A stretch of 49,175 nt of DNA. Source: Trueperaceae bacterium (GTDB taxonomy: Bacteria > Deinococcota > Deinococci > Deinococcales > Trueperaceae). The stretch lies in the NCBI GenBank assembly GCA_007695125.1, contig REEJ01000171.1, positions 1-49,175 of the forward strand, written 5' to 3'. Shown in pieces: positions 3,959 to 47,482 of this stretch. Position numbers and translations under genes: made by a program. Positions within the stretch are counted from its first letter, which is position 1; each line of letters starts with the position of its first letter. The notes below the pieces were generated by a model that saw only the letters and a program-made list of their open reading frames with translations, was not told the origin of the DNA and searched no databases.

Positions 3959-5221
3959 TCAGAAGCCGTAGCCGTCGTTGTTGGCGATGTCGCGCTCGAT
4001 CTCGTCGACGGCCGCGTCGAGCGCGTCCTGCACGTCGGCGCCGTTGGCGATGTCGGCCAGCGCCTTCTCGAAGGTCAGCGCGATGCCCACGTACGCCGGG
4101 GTCGGCGGGCGGATCAGCGACTGCTGGTTGCTCAGCTCGTAGAACACCTCGAGCGGTCCGCCCTCACCGTAGTTCTGGGTCATGGCGGCGGCGGAGACGG
4201 TCGACGGGACGAGGCCGATGCCGTCGCTGAAGGCGGCGAGGTACTCGTCTTGCAGGGCGAACTCGATGAAGGCGTTGGCGCCCTCGGGGTGCTGGGTGGT
4301 CGCCGAGACGCCGAACTGCCAGGAAGCGCCGCCGATCTTGGGACCGTGGCCGAAGTCGGGCGCCGGCAGGAAGAGGAGGTCGTCGCCGAAGGCCTCGAGG
4401 GCGGGGATGGCGGCCCAGTTGCCGTTCCACTGCAGCGCGTAACGCCCGTCGAGGAAGCCGGTCTCGCGATCGGCGTCGTCCTGCGACGTGCCTGGGGTCA
4501 GGCCGCGCGTGAAGAGGCTCTGCCACCAGTTGCCGAAGGCCACGGCCTCGGGGCCGTTCAGGACCCCTTCGGCGGTGAGGAAGGTGCTGCGGTCGATCAG
4601 GTCGCCACCGAAGCTCTGCAGGAAGGGCGAGAAGGCGTAGGGGTACCACTCTCCGGTCCACGCCATGCCGACGTCGAACGCGTAGTCGAACTCGCCGGTC
4701 GCGTCGAGCGTCTCGAGGATGGCGTCGAACTCCTCGAACGTCCAGGGCGCGTCGAGGCTGGGGATGCGGATGTCGTTCGCTTCGAGCACCGAGCGCCGGG
4801 CGTAGATCGCGATCGCCGCGTCCCACAGGCCCACCGAGTAGACCTCGCCCTGCCACTCGCCGATCACGCTGGGCAGGAAGCCATCGAGCACACCGTCCGA
4901 CAGGCTCAACGGTTGCATGTAGTTGGCCCAGGCCCAGTTGGGCATCACGGGACCGTCGACGTCGAGGATGTCGGGCAGGTTGCCGGCGAGCGCGGCGGAG
5001 ACGACCGAGGGGTTGTAGGCGAGTTGGGGGAACTCCTCGAGCGTGACGCGCCAGTCGTCTTGCGCGGCGTTGAAGTCGTCGATGATCTGGACGATGATCG
5101 CTCGCTCGACCTCGTTGCCGGCGCCGTGGTACCAGAGGCTCAGGGTGGTCTGCGCGAACACGACGCCGCTCAGTGCGAGGGCGGCGAGCAGCGCTGTGAG
5201 GGACCGCTTCGTCGTTGTCAT
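3959..5221 (-). CDS. Extracellular sugar-binding protein of ABC transporter
   Basis: Signal peptide MTTTKRSLTALLAALALSGVVFAQTTLSLWYHG; family-1 SBP features (LQWNGNWA, DVQDALDAA near C-terminus). Confidence 0.92.
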   Translation of the reverse strand: MTTTKRSLTALLAALALSGVVFAQTTLSLWYHGAGNEVERAIIVQIIDDFNAAQDDWRVTLEEFPQLAYNPSVVSAALAGNLPDILDVDGPVMPNWAWANYMQPLSLSDGVLDGFLPSVIGEWQGEVYSVGLWDAAIAIYARRSVLEANDIRIPSLDAPWTFEEFDAILETLDATGEFDYAFDVGMAWTGEWYPYAFSPFLQSFGGDLIDRSTFLTAEGVLNGPEAVAFGNWWQSLFTRGLTPGTSQDDADRETGFLDGRYALQWNGNWAAIPALEAFGDDLLFLPAPDFGHGPKIGGASWQFGVSATTQHPEGANAFIEFALQDEYLAAFSDGIGLVPSTVSAAAMTQNYGEGGPLEVFYELSNQQSLIRPPTPAYVGIALTFEKALADIANGADVQDALDAAVDEIERDIANNDGYGF

Positions 5222-6613: not shown

Positions 6614-7561
6614 ATGGGCATCGGATCGTGCGACCACACCATCCACGAGCACCAGCACCACCACGTGTGGGACCTGGCGCAGCCGCCGGCGCTCGAGGTC
6701 GACGACGGCGCGAGCGTCGAGTTCGACACCACCGACGCGTCGGGAGGTCAGCTCGGGCCCAGCTCGAGCGCGGCCGACCTCGCGAACGTCGATTTCGCCC
6801 GCGTGAACCCTGTGACCGGTCCCGTCTACGTGCTCGGCGCGCGGCCCGGCGACGTGCTCGAGGTCGAGGTGCTCGAGCTCGCCATGAGCGGCTGGGGTTG
6901 GACCGCGCTCATCCCCGGCTTCGGCCTGCTGGCAGAGCAGTACACCGAGCCCTGGCTCAAGCACTGGGACCTGACGCCCGGCGCCCGGACCGCTGCGTTC
7001 GCAGACAGCATCGACGTGCCGATCGCGCCGTTCCCAGGCACCATCGGCCTCGCGCCGCCGACGCCCGGACCCCACCCCACCGTGCCACCGCACGCCTGGG
7101 GCGGCAACCTCGACACCAAGCACCTCACGGCCGGGACGAAGCTCTACTTGCCCGTCGGCGTCGAGGGCGCGCTCTTCTCGGTCGGCGATACCCATGCCGC
7201 ACAGGGCGACGGCGAGGTGTGCGGCACCGCGATCGAGTCACGCATGCGCATCGCGCTGCGCTTCCGGCTGCGCCGCGATCTGCGCCTGCGCTTCCCCGCC
7301 TTCGAGACCTTCGGAGCCGCTCCCGGCGACCGCGCCACCAGCGGCTCGTTCGTGACCACCGGGGTCGGTCCGGACCTGATGGGCGCCGCTCGCGACGCCG
7401 TGTCGGGGATGATCGATCGCCTGATGGCCACCACGCGCTTGGACGCCGACGAGGCCTACGCGCTGTGCAGCGTCGCGGTCGACATTCGCGTCCACGAGGT
7501 GGTCGACGCACCGAACTGGGTGGTCGGCGCGTGGTTACCGCACGGCGTCGTGCGCGGCTGA
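6614..7561 (+). CDS. Acetamidase/formamidase family protein
   Basis: NPVTGPVYVLGARPGDVLEVEVLEL, HAWGGNLDTKHLTAGTKLYLPVGVEGALFSVGDTHAAQGDGEVCGTAIE family motifs; RBS gaggag upstream. Confidence 0.93.
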   Translation: MGIGSCDHTIHEHQHHHVWDLAQPPALEVDDGASVEFDTTDASGGQLGPSSSAADLANVDFARVNPVTGPVYVLGARPGDVLEVEVLELAMSGWGWTALIPGFGLLAEQYTEPWLKHWDLTPGARTAAFADSIDVPIAPFPGTIGLAPPTPGPHPTVPPHAWGGNLDTKHLTAGTKLYLPVGVEGALFSVGDTHAAQGDGEVCGTAIESRMRIALRFRLRRDLRLRFPAFETFGAAPGDRATSGSFVTTGVGPDLMGAARDAVSGMIDRLMATTRLDADEAYALCSVAVDIRVHEVVDAPNWVVGAWLPHGVVRG

Positions 7562-28958: not shown

Positions 28959-31633
28959 GCGCCGTCGTCCTCGAGCCACCCGAGCGTCCGCGCGCGCTCC
29001 ACGGCCTCGAGCCGCGTCCCGACCCCGAGCTTGGCGTAGAGGTTCTTGACGTGGAACCGGACGGTGTTCACGCTCAGGCCGAGGTCGTCTGCGATGCGAC
29101 CGTAGCTGGCGGCCGTGGCCAACGCGCGCAGGATGTCGCGCTCGCGCCGGGTCGCAGCCTGCAGCCCCGGCTCCGGCGCCGCATCCACGACGCGGGCACG
29201 GACCTCGCTCGGGAACGCCGCGAGCAGGCGCCGGGCGTACGGGTGCCCGAGCCGACCGAGCAACGCCGCGCACTCGCGGCCGGCCTCGACGAACGTGCGC
29301 GCGAACCCCTCGGGTTCGGCCATGCGAACGGCCCGTGCCAACGACGTGTGCGCGGACGATGCGTCGCCGCTCGCAGCCTGCGTCGACGCCTGGACGACCA
29401 GCGCCCCGATGCGCACGCCGTCGCCCGGATCGCCGGCGCCGGCGTGCGCCACGAGCGCACTCGTGATCGCGAGCGCCGCGTCGAGGTCACCGGGAGCGCG
29501 GCGCCGCAGGAGCAGCCGCGCGCGTGCCAGCGCGAGCGCCGCGCGTGCCGGCCCGCGTGCCCCGAGGGCCTCGGCGCCGACGAGGTGGGCCTCGGCCGCA
29601 TCGAACGCACCCGCAGCCGCGCTCGCCTCGCACGAACGCGCCGCGACCAGCGCCCGCACCCAGGTCGGGACGCCGCGCTCCACCAGCGTCCGCGCCGCCT
29701 CGAGCGCGGCGTCGGCACGGTGGCGATCACCATCGGCCTGGCGCAGCCGGCTCCAGGCGAGCTGCGCGTTCACGAGCACGGCCGGCTGGCCGCCGCGCTC
29801 GGCGAGCGCCGTCGCCTCCGGGAGCGCGGCACGGACCGCCGCGAGCTCGTCGCGTTCCAGGAGCGCCGCACAGCGTGAGAGCAGCGCCGCCGCGGCGGCC
29901 GGATGGCCTGCCGCGCCCTCCAACGGCTGCGTCACCGAGATCGCCTTGCTCAACTGCCCGCGCTGCACGTAGAGCAGGCCGAGGTGTGCGCGCGCCAAAC
30001 CCTCGGGGACCGCCAGGCCCGCTGCGCGGCTGAGCGGGATGGCGCCTTCGTACGCGGCGATCGCCGGGCCGATCTCGCCCAACTCGCGCCGCGCACCCGC
30101 GAGCGCCATCTGGGCCGTGGCCCGGGTCACGAGGTCCCGCTCGGGCGCTGCGTCGAGGACCTCGTGAGCGAGCGCAAGCGCGTCGTGCGCCCGTCCGCGC
30201 GTGTCGGCCAGCACCGCCCTGAGCGCGAGGAGCTGTGCGCGATCGCCTGCCGAGAGCGCCTGCACCTCGTCCTGCAGGCCGTTCGTCAGCTGCGCGAGGT
30301 CGTCGTACCGTCCACGCAGCAAGAGCGCCCAACCGTAGGCGAGACGGGCCCGCTGGGCGCGGGCGCGGTCTTCTGCGGGGAGCCGCTCGAGGGTGCGTTC
30401 GACGTAACGGGCGCGGCCCTGCATCACCAGGTCGTACGCCCGCGCGTCGAGCAGGCGCGCGCCGCGCCGCGTGTCGCCCGACGACAACGCGTACTCGAGC
30501 GCCACCTCGGCGGCACCGTGGTCCTCGAACCAGGCGGCGGCGCGGCGCCGCAGCAGCGGCTCACGCTCCGCGTCGACGGCGTTGGCGCGACCCCGGAGGA
30601 GCGTGCGGAAGAGCCGGTGGAAGCGCCACCACGCGGCGCCGGGCGGGGCGCCTTCGGGCGGGGGCGCGGCCTGGACGAACAGCCCACGCTCGCGCGCCTC
30701 GCGCAGGCGCGCGTCGGCGTCGTCACGCGCAGTCACGGCGTCGACGAGGTCGGGCGTGAAGGCGTCGAGCGCGGCCGCGTCGAGCACGAACGCGGCGAGC
30801 GGCCCGTCGAGGCGGGCCAACACCTCCTCGGCCAGGTACTCCAGCGCGTAGCCGGTGCCGTGCGCGAGGCGCTCGACCAGCGCCCGCTCGTCGGTGTCGA
30901 CGGTGCCTACGAGCGCCAGTGCTGCCAAGCGGACGCCCGCCGCCCAGCCTTCGGTGGCGTGCAGCACAGCCGCGGCGGTCGCCTCCCCGACCGGCCGGCC
31001 GAGCTCGCGCGTGAGCATCTCGGCGGTGTGGTCCGCGCTCAGGCGCAGCTCGTCCGCGCGCACCTCGAGCAGCTGCCCGCGGGCGCGCCAGCGGTGCAGC
31101 GGCAGCGGGGGGTCGGCGCGCGTGGCGATCACCAGGCGCAGCCCTTCAGGAGCGTGCTCGACCAGGAACTCGAGTCCCTCGTGGACCTGCGGGTCGGCGA
31201 CGAGGTGGAGGTCGTCGAGGCACAAGAGCACCTCGCTTCGCGCCGCGCTGAGGGCGTTCAGCAGCGACGTGAGGAGCACCGGCACGGGCGGTGCCTGCGC
31301 CGTGGCCAGCGCGCGTTCCAGGGCCGCGCCGTGGCCACTGACGCGCTGGAGCGCCGCGCCGACGAGGCGGAAGAAGCGCTGCGGGTCGTCGTCTCGTTCG
31401 TCGAGCGCGACCCAGGCGACGCGGGCGGGATCAGCGCCCATCGCGGCGACCAGCGCGCTGGTCTTGCCGAAGCCCGCCGGAGCGCTCACGAGCGTCACCG
31501 GCGAGCGCCAGGCCTCCGCGAGGCGCGTCGTCAGCGCCGCGCGTGCCACGTGGCGCGGGTGCAGCGTGGGCGGCCGCAGCTTCGCCAGCGGTATGGGCTC
31601 GGGGGTCGGCGCACCGGCGGGGCCGTCGGGCAT
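28955..31633 (-). CDS. LuxR family transcriptional regulator, MalT/LAL type
   Basis: N-terminal VTLVSAPAGFGKTSAL Walker A; C-terminal RERDILRALATAASYGRIADDLGLSVNTVRFHVKNLYAKLGVGTRLEAVERARTLG. Confidence 0.95.
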   Translation of the reverse strand: MPDGPAGAPTPEPIPLAKLRPPTLHPRHVARAALTTRLAEAWRSPVTLVSAPAGFGKTSALVAAMGADPARVAWVALDERDDDPQRFFRLVGAALQRVSGHGAALERALATAQAPPVPVLLTSLLNALSAARSEVLLCLDDLHLVADPQVHEGLEFLVEHAPEGLRLVIATRADPPLPLHRWRARGQLLEVRADELRLSADHTAEMLTRELGRPVGEATAAAVLHATEGWAAGVRLAALALVGTVDTDERALVERLAHGTGYALEYLAEEVLARLDGPLAAFVLDAAALDAFTPDLVDAVTARDDADARLREARERGLFVQAAPPPEGAPPGAAWWRFHRLFRTLLRGRANAVDAEREPLLRRRAAAWFEDHGAAEVALEYALSSGDTRRGARLLDARAYDLVMQGRARYVERTLERLPAEDRARAQRARLAYGWALLLRGRYDDLAQLTNGLQDEVQALSAGDRAQLLALRAVLADTRGRAHDALALAHEVLDAAPERDLVTRATAQMALAGARRELGEIGPAIAAYEGAIPLSRAAGLAVPEGLARAHLGLLYVQRGQLSKAISVTQPLEGAAGHPAAAAALLSRCAALLERDELAAVRAALPEATALAERGGQPAVLVNAQLAWSRLRQADGDRHRADAALEAARTLVERGVPTWVRALVAARSCEASAAAGAFDAAEAHLVGAEALGARGPARAALALARARLLLRRRAPGDLDAALAITSALVAHAGAGDPGDGVRIGALVVQASTQAASGDASSAHTSLARAVRMAEPEGFARTFVEAGRECAALLGRLGHPYARRLLAAFPSEVRARVVDAAPEPGLQAATRRERDILRALATAASYGRIADDLGLSVNTVRFHVKNLYAKLGVGTRLEAVERARTLGWLEDDGA

Positions 31634-31639
31634 GCCTCG

Positions 31640-31645
31640 ACGGTA
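31640..31645 (-). promoter_or_regulatory. -10 box for leaderless LAL-regulator mRNA
   Basis: Minus strand TACCGT, 6 nt, ATG 31633. Confidence 0.45.
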
Positions 31646-31693
31646 CTGCGCCGGGGGCGGGCTCTGGGCAGGGGCCGCGGTCCCGGCAGACGC

Positions 31694-39965: not shown

Positions 39966-41617
39966 CAGCGCGCCTCCGTGACGTTCTGGCCGTTGTCGGA
40001 GAACACGTTGTCCACGCCCTGGGCCGCACCCTGGTCCTCCAGGCGCACACCGGACTCGGAGCCCGCGATCGTGTTCCCCTCCAACGTTCCGGTGGCGGCG
40101 TCGACGATCAGCACGCCGACCTGACCGTTGCCGAGAAGCCGGTTGTCCTCGAGGTGCCCGCCCGACTCGTCCGCCAAGGCCACCCCGTTGCGTCCGTTGC
40201 CCGTGATCTCGTTGCGCATGAACACGGCGCGGGTGCCACCCAGGAGCACGGCGCCGGAGTGCAGGTTGTCGAAGACCCGGTTCTCCGTGACGAAGGCGGT
40301 GGCGGCACCGGTCATCCACAGCCCCATCTCGTTGCCCGTGATGGTGTTGTCGGTCAGGTCGGCGCTCGCGTCGCCGTCGATCCACACGCCCCTCGCCACG
40401 TGACCGGCGATGGTGTTGCCGACGATGTCGACGCTGGCCGCCTCGCCGATGGTCACGCCCGACGACGCGCCGTCGAGCAGCTCGGAGCCGTGGATGGCCG
40501 CCCGGGCGTCGCCGTGGACGAACACCGACCCCTCGTTGCCGAGGAAGCGGCTGCCCTGGATCACCAAGGTGCCCTGATCGCTGACCCGGGTGTGGCCGAA
40601 CGCCCCGTTCGCCGCGACGGTCGAGTCCTCGATCACCAGCGTGCCCGCCTGCCGCACTTCGAACGCCCCGCCGAGACTGCCGCGCACCGTGGCACGTTGC
40701 ACGGCCACGCGCGCCTCGTCCATGACGACCACGGCTGCCCAGCGCCGGCTCCCGTCCTCGAGCCCGTCACCGTTGGCCTCGAGCAACGTACCGTCGATGA
40801 CCACCTCGGCGGTGCCGCTGGCGGCGATGGCGGACACCGGCGAGTCGCGCACGATCCCGCCCCGGAAGGTCGCTCGCGCCTGGTCCACCACCCGGATGGC
40901 TTCGAGCCACATCCCGCGCTCGACGTCGAGGACGCCGTTGCCTCCGAAGCCGCTATCCGTGAGCGTCGCCTGCGCGTCGTCCAGGAGGACGATCGCCTGC
41001 GCGAACTGGTCGAGGAAGGTGCTGCCACGGACGTCGATCCGAGCCTCCTGGACCGCGATGATCCCGCGGTGGTTGTCACCCACCTGCGACGTGGCGAGGC
41101 GCAGCGCACTCGTCCCGAGCACCTCGATCGCCGCGTTCTCGTTTCGGATGATCCGCGTGTCCTCGACGTCGGCCTCGGCCCTGCCCTGCAGCACGAGGGC
41201 CGTGCCGTGCCCGGCCGGGCGCCACGGATCCGCTGGCTCGACGGTGCCCGCCTTGGCGAGCCCGAGGTCGACGCCGCGCAGCACGACGTGGCCGTTACGC
41301 ACCACCACGAGGTCACCGGCCGAGTCGCCGGCCCACACGAGGCGCAGCCCCTCCAGATGCAGCCGGGCTCCTTCACCGACGCGGACGGCGATCGGGCCGC
41401 CGGACGCCTCGATGGTCACGTCGTCGGGGCCGCTCCCGACGATCGACAGCGCGCCGGCGACGTCGAGCGAACCGTCGAGCGCGTACGTGCCAGGCGCGAT
41501 TCGGTACTCGCCGCCGCTCGCGAAGGCGGCCACCAGGTCGTCGACGCTCTCGATCGCCGTCTGGGCGAAGGCGGCGCACAGGAGCAGCGCCAGCACCAGG
41601 GTGCCGAGGCGCCTCAC
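39965..41617 (-). CDS. Secreted right-handed parallel beta-helix protein (paralogue)
   Basis: GTG start overlaps the upstream stop; repeats such as NTITGNEMGLWMTGAATAFVTENRVFDNLHSGAVLLGGTRAVFMRNEITGNGRNGVAL. Confidence 0.88.
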   Translation of the reverse strand: MRRLGTLVLALLLCAAFAQTAIESVDDLVAAFASGGEYRIAPGTYALDGSLDVAGALSIVGSGPDDVTIEASGGPIAVRVGEGARLHLEGLRLVWAGDSAGDLVVVRNGHVVLRGVDLGLAKAGTVEPADPWRPAGHGTALVLQGRAEADVEDTRIIRNENAAIEVLGTSALRLATSQVGDNHRGIIAVQEARIDVRGSTFLDQFAQAIVLLDDAQATLTDSGFGGNGVLDVERGMWLEAIRVVDQARATFRGGIVRDSPVSAIAASGTAEVVIDGTLLEANGDGLEDGSRRWAAVVVMDEARVAVQRATVRGSLGGAFEVRQAGTLVIEDSTVAANGAFGHTRVSDQGTLVIQGSRFLGNEGSVFVHGDARAAIHGSELLDGASSGVTIGEAASVDIVGNTIAGHVARGVWIDGDASADLTDNTITGNEMGLWMTGAATAFVTENRVFDNLHSGAVLLGGTRAVFMRNEITGNGRNGVALADESGGHLEDNRLLGNGQVGVLIVDAATGTLEGNTIAGSESGVRLEDQGAAQGVDNVFSDNGQNVTEAR

Positions 41618-42930
41618 GGCGCCACGGGCCCGTAGGTGCCGTCGAAGCCGATCGCGACCGCGAAAGCGTCGGCGAGCGACATACGCGGGAGCCACACGTC
41701 GGAGTCGACGTCGAGGTCGGTGCCCTGCAGGTTCCAGCCGAAGAAGCCGCGAACGGTGTTGGCCCACGACTCGACGACTTCGACCTCGGCCTCCGCGGCG
41801 TTGCGGTCGATCAGCGTACGCGCGCCGTAGAGCGCGCCCCACGCCGGGCTGATGGCGTACTCGAGATCGAAGCGGGTGTTGCCCCAAGCGTCGTACACCT
41901 CGAGCGCCCAGTCGGCGATGTTGTCCAGGTCGATGATCGTGTCGAACTCTTGGTAGTCGCCCTGCGCGTTGGCCACGAAGACGTTATCGAGCAGCACCAG
42001 GTCGCTCGCCCGGCGGGCGTTGTCGATCCCGAAGGCGTCGTTGAAGGCGAGGATGTTGTTGGCGACCTCGACCGTGATGCGTCCCTCGAGCAGGATCGCC
42101 GAGCCGCCGAAGCTGCCGAAGGGGCTGTGCTTCTGCGTGAAGAGCGCGGCGTTGTGCGCGAAGCGGTAGCGCGGGAAGTCGTTCGGGTCGTCGGCCGCGA
42201 TGGCGGTGGCGAGGTGGAAGCCGGCGCCGGTGTTGTTGACCGCGACGGAGTGCTCGATGGTCACGTCGGCCGCGGCGCCAGGGTAGAAGGCGAACGCGCC
42301 CTGCGTGGGGGCGGTGTTGGTGACGATCACATGCCGCACGACGATGGTGCTGTCGACGCCGGTGCGGATCACGAGGCCCCCCGACTCCGGGGTCGGCGTG
42401 TGCTGCGGCGTGCCCTGGCGGATGATCCGGCTCCCCTCGTCGTCGGGGTAGTAGTTGCGCGGACCGTGGTCGATGACCACGCCGTCGACGACCACCGTGT
42501 GCACGGTGTCCTCGCCGCGCGCCTGCATGAGCCTGGTCGCGAACCCACTCGTATCGATCATGAGACGCGGGTCGGTGGTGAAGTTCTGGGCGTTGTGCAC
42601 ACCGGTGAGCACCGTCACGTGCGCGCCCCACGGATCGCGGCTGGCGAAGTCGGGGGCGAAGCCGCCGTAGATCTCCACCGGGACGGTGATGTGATCGGCG
42701 CCGTTGTCGGCGCGCCCAGTGAAGGTGCCGCCGGTGATGCACACCACGTCGCCGGGCTCGAGGTCGGTGACGATGTTGCCGAGGTCGCGCGCCGGGCGCT
42801 CGAGGCTGGCGACGCGGCCACTCCCCTGCTCGCTCACGTACTTCGTGCAGGCTTGCGCCAGCGCGGGTGCGCCGGCGAGCAGCAGCGTCGCGAGCGCGAG
42901 TGCGAGGCGGCGGACGGTGGGGTGGTGCAT
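41614..42930 (-). CDS. Secreted parallel beta-helix-like protein
   Basis: Signal peptide LALALATLLLAGAPALAQA; NIVTDLEPGDVVCITGGTFTG, IYGGFAPDFASRDPWG, VAVNNTGAGFHLATA. Confidence 0.85.
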   Translation of the reverse strand: MHHPTVRRLALALATLLLAGAPALAQACTKYVSEQGSGRVASLERPARDLGNIVTDLEPGDVVCITGGTFTGRADNGADHITVPVEIYGGFAPDFASRDPWGAHVTVLTGVHNAQNFTTDPRLMIDTSGFATRLMQARGEDTVHTVVVDGVVIDHGPRNYYPDDEGSRIIRQGTPQHTPTPESGGLVIRTGVDSTIVVRHVIVTNTAPTQGAFAFYPGAAADVTIEHSVAVNNTGAGFHLATAIAADDPNDFPRYRFAHNAALFTQKHSPFGSFGGSAILLEGRITVEVANNILAFNDAFGIDNARRASDLVLLDNVFVANAQGDYQEFDTIIDLDNIADWALEVYDAWGNTRFDLEYAISPAWGALYGARTLIDRNAAEAEVEVVESWANTVRGFFGWNLQGTDLDVDSDVWLPRMSLADAFAVAIGFDGTYGPVAP

Positions 42931-42969: not shown

Positions 42970-43155
42970 TCAGGAGCGGGTGTCGTCGCACGCCGCGTCG
43001 GCGTGCACCGCCTCGTCGACGAACGCCCAGGCGGCCACCCACGTCTCGAACTCGAGCACCTCGCGCGTGCGCAGGTCCTGCACGTGCACGCGCTGGGTAC
43101 CGTTCGACTGGGTGAACCGGATCAGGTAGCTGCCGACGAGCCGCTCCTTGGCCAT
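42970..43155 (-). CDS. 61-aa small protein, hypothetical
   Basis: MAKERLVGSYLIRFTQSNGTQRVHVQDLRTREVLEFETWVAAWAFVDEAVHADAACDDTRS; precisely positioned behind a predicted leaderless promoter. Confidence 0.7.
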   Translation of the reverse strand: MAKERLVGSYLIRFTQSNGTQRVHVQDLRTREVLEFETWVAAWAFVDEAVHADAACDDTRS

Positions 43156-43162
43156 GCGGGAC

Positions 43163-43205
43163 AGGCTAGGAGGGTGCCGTTTCAGTGCCGTTTCGGTGCC
43201 GCGGC
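43163..43205 (-). promoter_or_regulatory. SARP-type promoter (heptamer repeats plus -10) for the 61-aa gene
   Basis: Minus strand: GCCGCGG-CACC-GAAACGG-CACT-GAAACGG-CACCCTCC-TAGCCT-GTCCCGC-ATG; 11-bp period, 8-bp gap to -10. Confidence 0.75.
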
Positions 43206-43230: not shown

Positions 43231-46185
43231 TCAGCTCGCGAGCAGGAGACGCTCGACGACGGGCGCGAGGCGCTCGGGATCCGCCGGCGGTTCGTGATCG
43301 GCGTCGGGCCGCAGTGCCGCGGCCCGGTCGCGCAGGCTCGGGGGCGTGACCGGGTGACGCAGTACGGCATCGAGCACGGCGGTCGCCAGCTCGCACCGAC
43401 CGGTGGCATCGAGCGCGCCGGCGTACGCCACCAGCACCTGGAGGAGCCGCGGCAGCGCGGCAGCGTCACGGGCGATGCGCAGCGCGGGGAGGTAGTGCGC
43501 GTCTGCGCGCTCGGGAACTCCGCGGCGGACCTGCAGGTCGCCGAGGTTCTTGAGCGTGACGATCTGGCCGAGCGTGTCTCCGACCGCCTCCTTGATGGCC
43601 AGACTCTCGCGGCCCATCGCCTCCGCCTCGTCGAGGCGTCCGAGGGTGCCGTAGAGCACCAGCAGGTTGTTCTTCACCGACGAGACGCCGCGCGGGTAGG
43701 CCAGACGCCCGTACACCTCGAGGCTCCGTTCGTAGCGGCGCGCCGCCTCCTGCGCGTCGCCGCGCGCGTCGGCGATGTAGCCGAGGTTGTTCAGCGCGGT
43801 GGCGCGCGACAGCTCGTCGCCGACCCGCTCGAAGAGCGTCACGCAGCGGAGGAAGCGCGCCTCCGCCGCATCGAACCGCTCTTGCATCGCCTCCATGCTG
43901 CCGAGCGAGTTGAGCACGTTGGCGAGCTCGGCCTCGTCGCCACTCGCCTCGAACGCGGCGACGGCGCGCTCGTAGACCGCGTCCGCCTCGTCGAACGCTC
44001 CTTGTAGCTGCAGCACGTCGCCGAGACAGCGCTGGGCGCGCCCGGCCAACGTGTCGTCGCCGATCCTCCCAGCACGCTCCGCAGCTGACGCTGCGAAGCC
44101 GCGGGCCTCGGCGAGCTCGCCACGCTCCCGGGCGGTCGTCGCGGCCGCCACCTCCACCGTGGTGGCGAGCGCCTGCGCGAACCTCCCGTCGACCACGCCC
44201 ACGCGCTCGAGCGATGCGCGGCACAGCTCACCACCGCGGCGGTAGTGCCCGAGCAGGTCGTAGTGGTCGAACAGCGGCTTGGCGACCTGCAGCGCACGCT
44301 CGAACGCGTGGGTGTCGAGGAGGCGCAGCCACGCGCGCTCGAGGTTGGCGAGGTCGTCGCCGAGCGCGACGAGCGCCTCGCTCGCACCGGTGGCGGGGTG
44401 CTCGGCGACGGCCGCGAGTCGCTCCGTGTAGTGCTCGGCGTGCGCGTCGAGCGCAGCGGCCTCGAGCTCGGGGTCGTCTGCCAGCGCCTCGGCCGCGTAC
44501 TGCGCAACCAGGGCGTGGCTGGCGAAGCGGTCGGGCCCGAGCCGCTGGACGAGCGACTGGTTCAGCAGGCTGAGCAGGAGCGCGCGCGGCGCCCCACTGA
44601 CCGCAGCCGCGGCCGCGAGCGTGCCGCCGCCCACGAGGACGGAGAGGCGGGCGAGCGCCGCGCGCTTGGCGGTGCTGAGGTCGGCCCAGGTCCGCTCGAG
44701 CACCGAACGCATGCTGCGGTGACGCTCGGGGACGTCCATGAGGTCGGTCTCGAGCAGGTGGTACCCGGTCTCGAGCTCGTCCGCGACGGTCGCGAGCGGC
44801 ATCGCCCGGACCCACGTCGCGGCGAGCTCCAGCGCCAAGGGGAGCCCCTGCACCGCGCTCGCGATGCGCGCAGCGGCCGCGAGCTCACCGTCGCCGACCT
44901 GCAGGCGCGGCTCGACGCGGCGCGCCGCACCGAGCAGCAGCGTGACCGCGTCGCTGCGACCGCCGGTTTCGTCGGCATCGGTCCGCAGGCCTGCGAGGTC
45001 GAGCACCACCTCACTCTGGAGCGCCAGGCGCCGGCGCGAGGTGACGACCGCCCGCGCCGCCCCGTCACCGGCGAGCCACGCCCCGAGGCGTGCGGCGTGT
45101 TCGGCGAGGGGCTCGAACTCGTCGAGGACCAGGAGCACGTCGAGCTCGGCCAGGACCTCCCGCAACCGCCGGTCGGCCGCTTCGCTGCCGCCCTCGACCT
45201 CGATGCCGAGCGCCTCGGCGACCCGCTCGAGGAGACCGTCGCCGTCACGCACGGCAGCGAGCGGTACGAAGACCGCCCCGGCGCCATGACGTGCGGCGCG
45301 GCGTCGAGCGAACTCGAGCGCCAGGCGCGTCTTGCCGATCCCACCGAGGCCGAGGATGGTGACGAGTCGCACGCCTTCGGCGTCGATCAGCGCCTCGAGC
45401 TGAGCCAGCTCCTGCGCACGGCCGACGAAGCGCGTGGCCGGCTCCGGGAGCATCGGCCGTTGCGGCTCTGGGGCCGGAGGCTGCTCGCCGACGGCAGGCT
45501 GTGGCTCCAGCGCCGCGCGGGTCGCGGCCGTCGGGGTCGTACCGACCTCGCGCTCGAGGAGGTCGCTGAACGCGTCGAAGCGGCGCTGCGCCTCGGTCGC
45601 GCGCCCAGAGCGTACGAGCGTCACCAGGAGGTGCTCCATCGCCCGCTCGTCCAGGTCGTCGATCGCCACGAGCCGTTCGAGAGCGTCGATCGCGTCCGTC
45701 CAGGCAGCCTCTGCGAGGCGCGCCTCCGCCAGGCGCTCGAGCGCCCCTCGATATCGGGACTGGAGCTCGAGCCGCTCGAGCTCGAGCCAGGTGTCGAAGG
45801 TCGGACGACCGCGCAGCGCGTACCCGGCGAGGAGCGGTCCCCGGTACGAACGCACGGCGGCGTCCAGGTCGTCCGCGGCGAGCGCAGCGCGGAACGTGGC
45901 GACGTCGTGACCGACGTCGAAGCGCACGCGGTGGGGTTCGACCTGCAGCCCAGCGGCCCACGGCAGCTGCTGCGCACGGTGCAGCTGCAGTCGGAGATAC
46001 TGCAGAGCCTGCGACTCGGCCTCGTCGGGTCGATACAGGTAGGCGAGGTCGGTGCGCGGCACCCAGCCCTCGGCGAGCGCGAGATACGCCAGGAGCGACG
46101 CGGGTGCGTTCACCGGGAGTGTGGACTCGACGCCAGCGTGCACGACCGCTGGGCTGCCGAACAGGGTGAGGCGCACGTCGGGCAC
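43231..46185 (-). CDS. SARP-type regulator: BTAD domain - NB-ARC/AAA ATPase - TPR
   Basis: VPDVRLTLFGSPAVVHAG...AIDALERLVAIDDLDERAMEHLLVTLVRSGRATEAQRRFDAFSDLLEREVGTTPTAATRAAL (BTAD); TILGLGGIGKTRLALEFARR (Walker A), VLLVLDEFE; C-terminal TPR repeats. Leaderless GTG 46185, 5 nt after TAGACT. Confidence 0.92.
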   Translation of the reverse strand: MPDVRLTLFGSPAVVHAGVESTLPVNAPASLLAYLALAEGWVPRTDLAYLYRPDEAESQALQYLRLQLHRAQQLPWAAGLQVEPHRVRFDVGHDVATFRAALAADDLDAAVRSYRGPLLAGYALRGRPTFDTWLELERLELQSRYRGALERLAEARLAEAAWTDAIDALERLVAIDDLDERAMEHLLVTLVRSGRATEAQRRFDAFSDLLEREVGTTPTAATRAALEPQPAVGEQPPAPEPQRPMLPEPATRFVGRAQELAQLEALIDAEGVRLVTILGLGGIGKTRLALEFARRRAARHGAGAVFVPLAAVRDGDGLLERVAEALGIEVEGGSEAADRRLREVLAELDVLLVLDEFEPLAEHAARLGAWLAGDGAARAVVTSRRRLALQSEVVLDLAGLRTDADETGGRSDAVTLLLGAARRVEPRLQVGDGELAAAARIASAVQGLPLALELAATWVRAMPLATVADELETGYHLLETDLMDVPERHRSMRSVLERTWADLSTAKRAALARLSVLVGGGTLAAAAAVSGAPRALLLSLLNQSLVQRLGPDRFASHALVAQYAAEALADDPELEAAALDAHAEHYTERLAAVAEHPATGASEALVALGDDLANLERAWLRLLDTHAFERALQVAKPLFDHYDLLGHYRRGGELCRASLERVGVVDGRFAQALATTVEVAAATTARERGELAEARGFAASAAERAGRIGDDTLAGRAQRCLGDVLQLQGAFDEADAVYERAVAAFEASGDEAELANVLNSLGSMEAMQERFDAAEARFLRCVTLFERVGDELSRATALNNLGYIADARGDAQEAARRYERSLEVYGRLAYPRGVSSVKNNLLVLYGTLGRLDEAEAMGRESLAIKEAVGDTLGQIVTLKNLGDLQVRRGVPERADAHYLPALRIARDAAALPRLLQVLVAYAGALDATGRCELATAVLDAVLRHPVTPPSLRDRAAALRPDADHEPPADPERLAPVVERLLLAS

Positions 46186-46263
46186 GCGGGAGTCTACCGC
46201 CGGGGCTGAGCGCGGCTGGGGCAGCGGGCACACAGGACGCTCGGCGTCGATGCCGCCGTGCGT

Positions 46264-46310
46264 GCGCTAAGCGGGCGCTAAGCCGGCGCTAAGCGGGCGC
46301 ACCATAGCCT
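46264..46310 (+). promoter_or_regulatory. SARP-type promoter with three perfect-period 11-bp direct repeats
   Basis: GCGCTAAGCGG GCGCTAAGCCG GCGCTAAGCGG GCGCACCA TAGCCT; heptamers TAAGCGG/TAAGCCG/TAAGCGG, 8 bp before TAGCCT (46305-46310). Confidence 0.85.
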
Positions 46311-46378
46311 CGCGACCGGACGGTTGGGCAGGCCACGGCCGTGGTCGGCACCTCTCCGTATCGCCGTTGGAGGCCATG

Positions 46379-47482
46379 ATGCAGACACACTCGCTCCGCT
46401 CTCGTGCCGCCCTCGCCCCGCTGATCGCGCTCGCGCTTGCGCTGTCTGCCTGCGGTGGCCCCGCGCCCGGCGGTCCGGGTGACCCGGACCCGGACCCGGA
46501 CCCGGACCCGACCGGCGTGACGCCCGCCATCCTCTTCCTCGGTGACGACTCCGGCATCCTCCAGGTCCTGCACAGCACGTCCACCGGCATCGCCGCTCGC
46601 GCCCCGCTGGTCCTGCCCGAGGACGCCGAGCCATGCGGCAGTGCCGCGCATGACGGGCGTCTCTACGTCGGCGACTACTGGAACGAGGTCATCTATGCCT
46701 ACGACCTCGAGGCCGCGATCGGCGGCGGCGTCGTGAGCCCACTCGCGACCGCTACCCCCAACGTCTCAGGGATCGTCGAGCCATGCGGTCTCGCGTTCGA
46801 CTCGAACGGCGACCTCTGGGTCGGTGACTTCTCCTCCGGCAACCGCGTCCTCACGTTCACCGATCCAGCCACGTGGAGCGGCGACGAGAGCCCGACCCCG
46901 TCGCGCATCCTGACGATGTCGTCGGCGGGCAGCTTCCAGAGCTGGGTCGACGTGGTCGACGTCGCTTTCGACGACGATGGCAACCTCTGGGTGGTCGACG
47001 AGTGGTACGAGACGATCACACGGATCGACGACCCGACCTCGCTCCCCGCCGACGCCACCAACACGGTGCCGTCGCTGCAGATCGTCGACGTCGAGGTGCC
47101 ACCGAGCGACGGCCTGAGCTACTCGCTGTACCTGCCGAACAGCGTCGCCATCGGCCCAGACGGCATGGTCTACGTCGGCAACGACTGGAGCTCGACCAAC
47201 CTGATCACACGCTACGACGACGTCGGTCTGGTCGACACGACCGGACAGGTCGAGCTCGTGCCGGGGGCCTACATCGTCGCCCCCGCTCCGTTGACGCGAT
47301 CCTTCAGCGTCGGCTTCGACCCCGATGGTCGCCTCTGGGTCGCCGACCGCGCCCGCTTGCACCGGCTCACCGGGTACACGGGCGATGGCGTGGTGAACGC
47401 CGGCAGCGGCGACTCGATCGCCCTCGCCGGCGCGACCACGTACTACGGCGGCATGACCTGGGTCGCCTGGTCCGGCGACTGA
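46379..47482 (+). CDS. Lipoprotein with NHL/SMP30-like beta-propeller repeats
   Basis: Lipobox LALSACGG; Asp-Pro linker; CGLAFDSNGDLWVGDF, VAFDDDGNLWVVDE, VAIGPDGMVYVGND, VGFDPDGRLWVADR repeats; GGAGG before ATG. Confidence 0.88.
   Translation: MQTHSLRSRAALAPLIALALALSACGGPAPGGPGDPDPDPDPDPTGVTPAILFLGDDSGILQVLHSTSTGIAARAPLVLPEDAEPCGSAAHDGRLYVGDYWNEVIYAYDLEAAIGGGVVSPLATATPNVSGIVEPCGLAFDSNGDLWVGDFSSGNRVLTFTDPATWSGDESPTPSRILTMSSAGSFQSWVDVVDVAFDDDGNLWVVDEWYETITRIDDPTSLPADATNTVPSLQIVDVEVPPSDGLSYSLYLPNSVAIGPDGMVYVGNDWSSTNLITRYDDVGLVDTTGQVELVPGAYIVAPAPLTRSFSVGFDPDGRLWVADRARLHRLTGYTGDGVVNAGSGDSIALAGATTYYGGMTWVAWSGD

Follow-up and report, generated by a model that had tools for sequence, protein, structure and literature searches.

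The gene for a protein of 61 amino acids on this contig stands between a gene for a large SARP regulator and one for a secreted protein, and it begins just behind a pair of short direct repeats. This raises the question of whether the repeats are the operator of the neighbouring SARP, and whether that same SARP also reads a similar group of repeats on its other flank, at 46264, as a first-pass annotation had proposed. By the window we mean the whole stretch of DNA that was analysed, 49,175 nucleotides in length. The features at the first site are as follows.

41614 to 42930, minus strand: gene for a secreted protein of the right-handed beta-helix type, which follows the small gene after about 40 bp and has a GAGGAGA-type ribosome-binding site of its own.
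42970 to 43155, minus strand: gene for the small protein of 61 aa, of a family with the pattern MxxERLxGSYLVRVxxxxxxRRIxLxxLxTGExxEFxxW, predicted to fold as beta-beta-beta-alpha (pLDDT 89).
43155 to 43156, minus strand: predicted transcription start, at or beside the A of the ATG (leaderless), from the 7-nt spacing between the -10 and the ATG.
43163 to 43168, minus strand: -10 hexamer TAGCCT (TAnnnT), with T, A and the final T conserved in 16 sequences.
43174 to 43184, minus strand: downstream 11-bp repeat unit TGAAACGGCAC, with recognition heptamer TGAAACG at 43178-43184, adjoining the position of a -35 element.
43185 to 43195, minus strand: upstream 11-bp repeat unit CGAAACGGCAC, with recognition heptamer CGAAACG at 43189-43195.
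43231 to 46233, minus strand: gene for the SARP regulator of 1000 aa, with a winged-helix DNA-binding domain, BTAD, nucleotide-binding domain and TPR, and the recognition helix LRLQLHRAQ.

Read directly on the minus strand from 43195 to 43153, the site is CGAAACG GCAC TGAAACG GCACCCTCC TAGCCT GTCCCGC ATG. The order and spacing of the elements before the ORF at 42970-43155 are as the first-pass annotation had given them: the repeats CGAAACG and TGAAACG, of which the first starts with CG rather than TG, have an 11-bp period and are followed by 9 bp, TAGCCT, 7 nt and the ATG at 43155. Direct repeats of 11 bp over the -35 position, with some 8 bp between the 3' repeat and the -10, are the arrangement of a SARP-dependent promoter, and in promoters of the OtcR type the 3' repeat is 8 bp from the -10 (PMC4393881). 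The TAnnnT located 7 nt before the ATG of the 61-aa gene agrees with the leaderless promoters of Deinococcus-Thermus, where TAnnnT 6-7 nt ahead of the start codon is a common pattern (PMC12340547); the window promoter has that spacing and in addition the direct repeats of a regulator. Because the pattern is so common in the phylum, TAGCCT and the 7-nt gap carry no special evidential weight.

The repeats themselves could be a matter of chance. One exact 7/7 repeat followed by N8 and TAnnnT is found in the window, where shuffled windows lead one to expect 0.03, and repeats of at least 6/7 identity in the same geometry occur in 3 regions against 0.47 expected from shuffles. From the window alone the promoter is moderately improbable by chance, which is suggestive, and an exact repeat of this kind does appear in about 3% of shuffles of one window. 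The question is decided by the relatives, since the layout is kept in seven loci that were located by protein homology without use of the motif, and whose flanks are otherwise unalignable. The repeat promoter is conserved in every close homologue derived by protein search, which refutes chance, and we give practically no credence to the view that the repeat is fortuitous and without function. The earlier judgement that chance was unlikely is thus borne out by the homologues, although the window statistics taken alone would have left it at a suggestion.

Protein search gave matches to the 61-aa protein in 11 other genomes, with one weak match lying inside an unrelated ORF, and the homologous contigs are from Trueperaceae (Deinococcota) and one Meiothermus; the small-gene homologue of Meiothermus hypogaeus has the same promoter. 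In the closer homologues the pattern is TGnAACG-N4-TGnAACG-N9-TAnnnT, with the ATG 6-7 nt further on in most, and this holds for AT-rich and GC-rich genomes alike. The site is retained in the nearest relative (L113), in which the SARP is 72%, the small protein 70% and the beta-helix protein, encoded at the same place, 81% identical. Across 16 aligned promoters the mean information content is 0.07 bits per column in the flanks, and it rises to 1.5-1.9 bits in the core columns G, A, C and G and in the T, A and T of the -10. Nine of the 16 were found by motif and seven by protein alone, and as the nine had been selected by motif it is the seven, free of that selection, that carry the conservation argument. 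A scan of 61 genomes with the TGnAACG pattern gave 71 matches against 8 for a reversed control. There is also a more distant set, read by eye, in which the repeats are of the GTAACG or TGACG type, the gap is longer by about 1 bp and CATnnT mostly follows. The repeats of this set lie partly within the end of the SARP gene, as do those at C35 in the window's genome.

With regard to the regulator, its gene has the same orientation as the 61-aa gene and ends 75 bp upstream of it. Pfam recognises the BTAD (PF03704, E 1.6e-16), AAA_22, NB-ARC (under its cut-off) and TPR_12, and AfsR is matched over residues 136-591. The winged-helix DNA-binding domain has no Pfam match, and the evidence for it comes from a model of residues 16-262 (pLDDT 94). 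Compared with the PDB, this model is closest to AfsR bound to the afsS promoter (E-value 1.3e-9) and to EmbR, with 244-254 columns aligned. The model supports the presence of an OmpR-type winged-helix domain N-terminal to the BTAD. With BTAD, modelled N-terminal winged helix, nucleotide-binding domain and TPR, the protein has the composition of the large AfsR-like SARPs.

The small-gene loci found by protein search have a SARP gene directly upstream of the small gene. A SARP is present within 1.5 kb at 25 of the 72 sites for which DNA was fetched, and at least 27 of 40 members of the small family are beside a SARP, a lower bound from coordinates that were listed by hand and are partly approximate. 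In three genomes of the same genus the small gene and its repeat promoter are away from any detectable SARP, and this fits a regulated target and not a mere tail of the SARP gene. The gene after the small gene in at least two of these three loci is one that looks cupredoxin-like.

The recognition helix and the operator change together. With SARP N-termini aligned, the third base of TGxAACG is seen to vary with the residue that follows LR: SARPs with L or V there have A or C (10 SARPs), those with K have G (6) and those with Q mostly T. The pairs of helix and heptamer are LR[LV]xxH with TG[AC]AACG, LRKL[IV]F with TGGAACG and LRQLLx with GTnACG, and Fisher tests of the association of helix and base gave 9e-5 and 3e-6, both of which ignore shared ancestry. 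The window SARP, with LRLQLHRAQ and a site that has A as third base, agrees with this rule. In AfsR, two residues of the recognition helix, T88 and R92, make contact with bases that are 2 bp from each other (PMC10936776). Going by residue spacing and not by alignment with AfsR, their equivalents here would be the residue that follows LR and the conserved R four positions further, and the variable base x3 is 2 bp from the conserved T1 of the operator, as in the AfsR contacts. Given the adjacency of small gene and SARP, the conservation of the site in homologues and the joint change of helix and variable base, it is very probable that the 43163 site serves the adjacent SARP as operator and promoter. 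The proposal of a SARP-type operator and promoter before a leaderless 61-aa gene is one on which these three lines and the geometry agree, with the start itself predicted from spacing.

The 61-aa protein has no match in Pfam or NCBIfam, and its model has no PDB fold match at E<=0.001. A PDB profile search brought up only designed proteins ('Tako8'), over 19 positions, and we judged this to be repeat or composition similarity. Of 112 Deinococcota genomes searched for the family, 42 have it, and a second class of 74 aa is likewise picked up with the family profile. As the small gene travels with SARP genes, our best guess for its product is a co-regulator or feedback partner that acts on its own SARP, and we would give this slightly less than an even chance. 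The beta-helix gene is probably co-transcribed with the small gene, and a homologue is also downstream of the small gene in L016. In L117 there are near-duplicate operators at 4961 and 5167, one before the small gene and the other before the beta-helix gene that follows it.

We think it highly likely that the SARP encoded immediately upstream acts through the operator and promoter at 43163 on the 61-aa gene and the beta-helix gene, presumably as an activator. Two SARP protomers would bind side by side, one to each 11-bp repeat, over the missing -35 region, and the bound SARP would recruit RNA polymerase to the TAGCCT -10. Transcription would start at or beside the ATG to give a leaderless mRNA for the small protein, and the downstream beta-helix gene would be transcribed together with the 61-aa gene from this promoter.

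The second site has the following features.

46268 to 46310, plus strand: repeat promoter with three TAAGCSG heptamers in an 11-bp period and TAGCCT at 46305-46310, before the NHL-repeat lipoprotein gene.
46376 to 47482, plus strand: gene for an NHL-repeat lipoprotein, divergent from the SARP gene, with a leader and ribosome-binding site and so not leaderless.

The first-pass annotation had the two sites bracketing the SARP gene, and they do flank it, but the 61-aa gene is on the same strand as the SARP gene, whereas the 46264 site faces a divergent gene. The distance from repeat to -10 is equal at the two sites, and on recounting GAAACGG does match TAAGCGG at 5 of 7 positions. The identical TAGCCT, however, cannot be used as evidence for a common regulator, TAnnnT being a general -10. 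Six to eight copies of the pattern CTAAGCG-N4-CTAAGCG-N9-TAnnnT, allowing for slight deviations, occur in the genome, and most of them precede a gene for a lipoprotein or a secreted protein. Such promoters are found on G000 C281, C323, C8, C167, C322, C81 and C103 (L036-L043), before lipoprotein and secreted genes and one 163-aa gene. The TAAGCG sites appear, from their sequence and the genes they precede, to form a separate lipoprotein regulon. Among 61 genomes the TAAGCG repeat is found only in the window's genome, G003 and G005, and there is one weaker site in the genome of L113, before the orthologue of a window-genome target. No close orthologue of the window SARP was found in G003 or G005, both incomplete assemblies (best matches only 34-37% identical), and the TAAGCG motif was not found in G007, G014, G016, G023 or Meiothermus, all of which have the module of SARP and small gene. 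TAAGCG also departs from the module heptamer at positions 2 and 5, which are nearly invariant in the module motif. Because regulon, genome distribution and these two positions separate it from the module motif, the 46264 site does not carry the operator word of 43163, and the claim that one SARP reads both sites is unsupported; the 46264 site is probably read by another regulator. The BTAD protein of C323 was considered as the TAAGCG reader and is not supported, no homologue of it being found beside the G003 or G005 sites, where the loci are short.

There are nevertheless points in favour of the adjacent SARP as the single reader of the two sites, one that would switch on the 61-aa gene as well as the divergently oriented gene for the NHL lipoprotein. 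The geometry is the same, C1 and A3 of the module heptamer are among the five shared bases, SARP genes commonly have a divergent target as neighbour (at C310 a single motif stands on both flanks), and 46264 is the TAAGCG site nearest to a SARP start. Against a TAAGCG word with a regulon of its own, carried by two genomes with only distant SARP matches and missing from most module genomes, these points leave it unlikely. A different regulator that uses 11-bp repeats, either another BTAD protein or a response regulator of the OmpR/PhoB type, could also have its operator at 43163. The genome has 19 BTAD matches, which provide other candidate readers, and competition of PhoP with AfsR for a shared box is known from Streptomyces (PMC8007912), but this type of SARP stays next to this motif from genus to genus and its helix varies in step with the operator base, and we consider it quite improbable that the reader is not the adjacent SARP. 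It could also be that the small gene is expressed mainly by read-through from the SARP gene, with the repeat minor or autoregulatory, as the two genes are on the same strand only 75 bp apart and another subfamily has its repeats across the SARP stop codon. However the full operator, -10 and leaderless spacing are conserved even at loci where no SARP gene precedes the small gene, and we see only a small chance of this. Activation of the small gene and beta-helix gene by the adjacent SARP is the reading that we prefer.

Other SARPs of the window's genome have their own small gene and their own repeat, TTTGAGG at C167, TTGACG at C310 and CGTnACG at C35. A second-class small gene of 74 aa with GTTTGAGG repeats was seen at L101 (G000:C167, 2252-2515) and L121-L123; it has a GTG start 6 nt after TAGCCT and a lipoprotein gene immediately behind, and it is conserved in three same-genus genomes. 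L097 (G000:C310) has TTGACG-type promoters on both sides of the SARP, at 7058 and 9831, for a divergent small gene and a lipoprotein. A TGGAACG repeat promoter is present before a conserved secreted protein in L035 (G000:C32, 6617-6649), with similar cases in G001-G004 and G006, and no small gene with the TGGAACG word was seen in the window's genome. TGTAACG repeats and a leaderless start precede an orthologous 335-aa gene in four genomes (L072-L075, in G058, G043, G039 and G060), the G043 copy having a divergent SARP 95 bp away; the product is presumably a ketoacyl-synthase III-type enzyme. Within the window, the gene at 28980-31672 (minus strand) for a LuxR-type large ATP-binding regulator has its ATG 6 nt after TACCGT, behind a weak 6/7 repeat, and is probably leaderless.

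Among known systems the closest is AfsR and afsS of S. coelicolor, with its afs box (PMC10936776, PMC2267785, PMC8007912). Both have a SARP of about 1000 aa with nucleotide-binding and TPR domains, an adjacent small gene (61 codons here, 63 for afsS) with SARP-type repeats in its promoter, and, as operator, two direct repeats of 11 bp that extend into the -35 region, and the domain model of the window SARP matches AfsR on the afsS promoter. The 61-aa protein is not AfsS: going by its published description, AfsS is 'sigma-like' with three 12-aa repeats, whereas the 61-aa protein has no such repeats and is predicted to be a compact beta-beta-beta-alpha. The systems also differ in that the window small-gene transcript is predicted to be leaderless, the Deinococcota module sits among secreted and lipoprotein genes, and one Deinococcota genome can have several modules with different operator words. 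The pathway SARPs OtcR (PMC4393881) and PimR (PMC5930380) likewise use two or three repeats with an 11-bp period, but the window system is in Deinococcota, with different heptamers and a small protein as local target. From the same phylum as the window SARP, DnrS of Thermus thermophilus (PMC5748679) and Deide_19260 (PMC3564903) have a BTAD/SARP domain, DnrS being a GAF-BTAD protein and Deide_19260 a response regulator, and the available text of these two papers describes no operator word or small partner gene for them. The module is very probably an AfsR-to-afsS-like one in Deinococcota, with a beta-beta-beta-alpha protein replacing AfsS, and in the open-access literature searched we found no description of it.

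SARPs have been studied mostly as regulators of antibiotic production in Streptomyces. In Deinococcota several of them seem to work in parallel, as switches of genes for secreted proteins and lipoproteins, and many are associated with a small protein that belongs to no family so far described. This may be a widespread Deinococcota module, in which many large SARPs each have a dedicated beta-beta-beta-alpha partner, expressed leaderless under the operator of that SARP, with specificity set by one residue and one base and with feedback on the SARP; we hold this as a tentative picture, with the scales tipped somewhat against it in this full form. If it is true, the pairing of residue and base would let many SARPs operate side by side in a cell with no cross-talk. 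From the covariation of helix residue and operator base comes a directly testable specificity rule for a family of regulators with few known targets, and cultured relatives such as Meiothermus hypogaeus make it practical to test.
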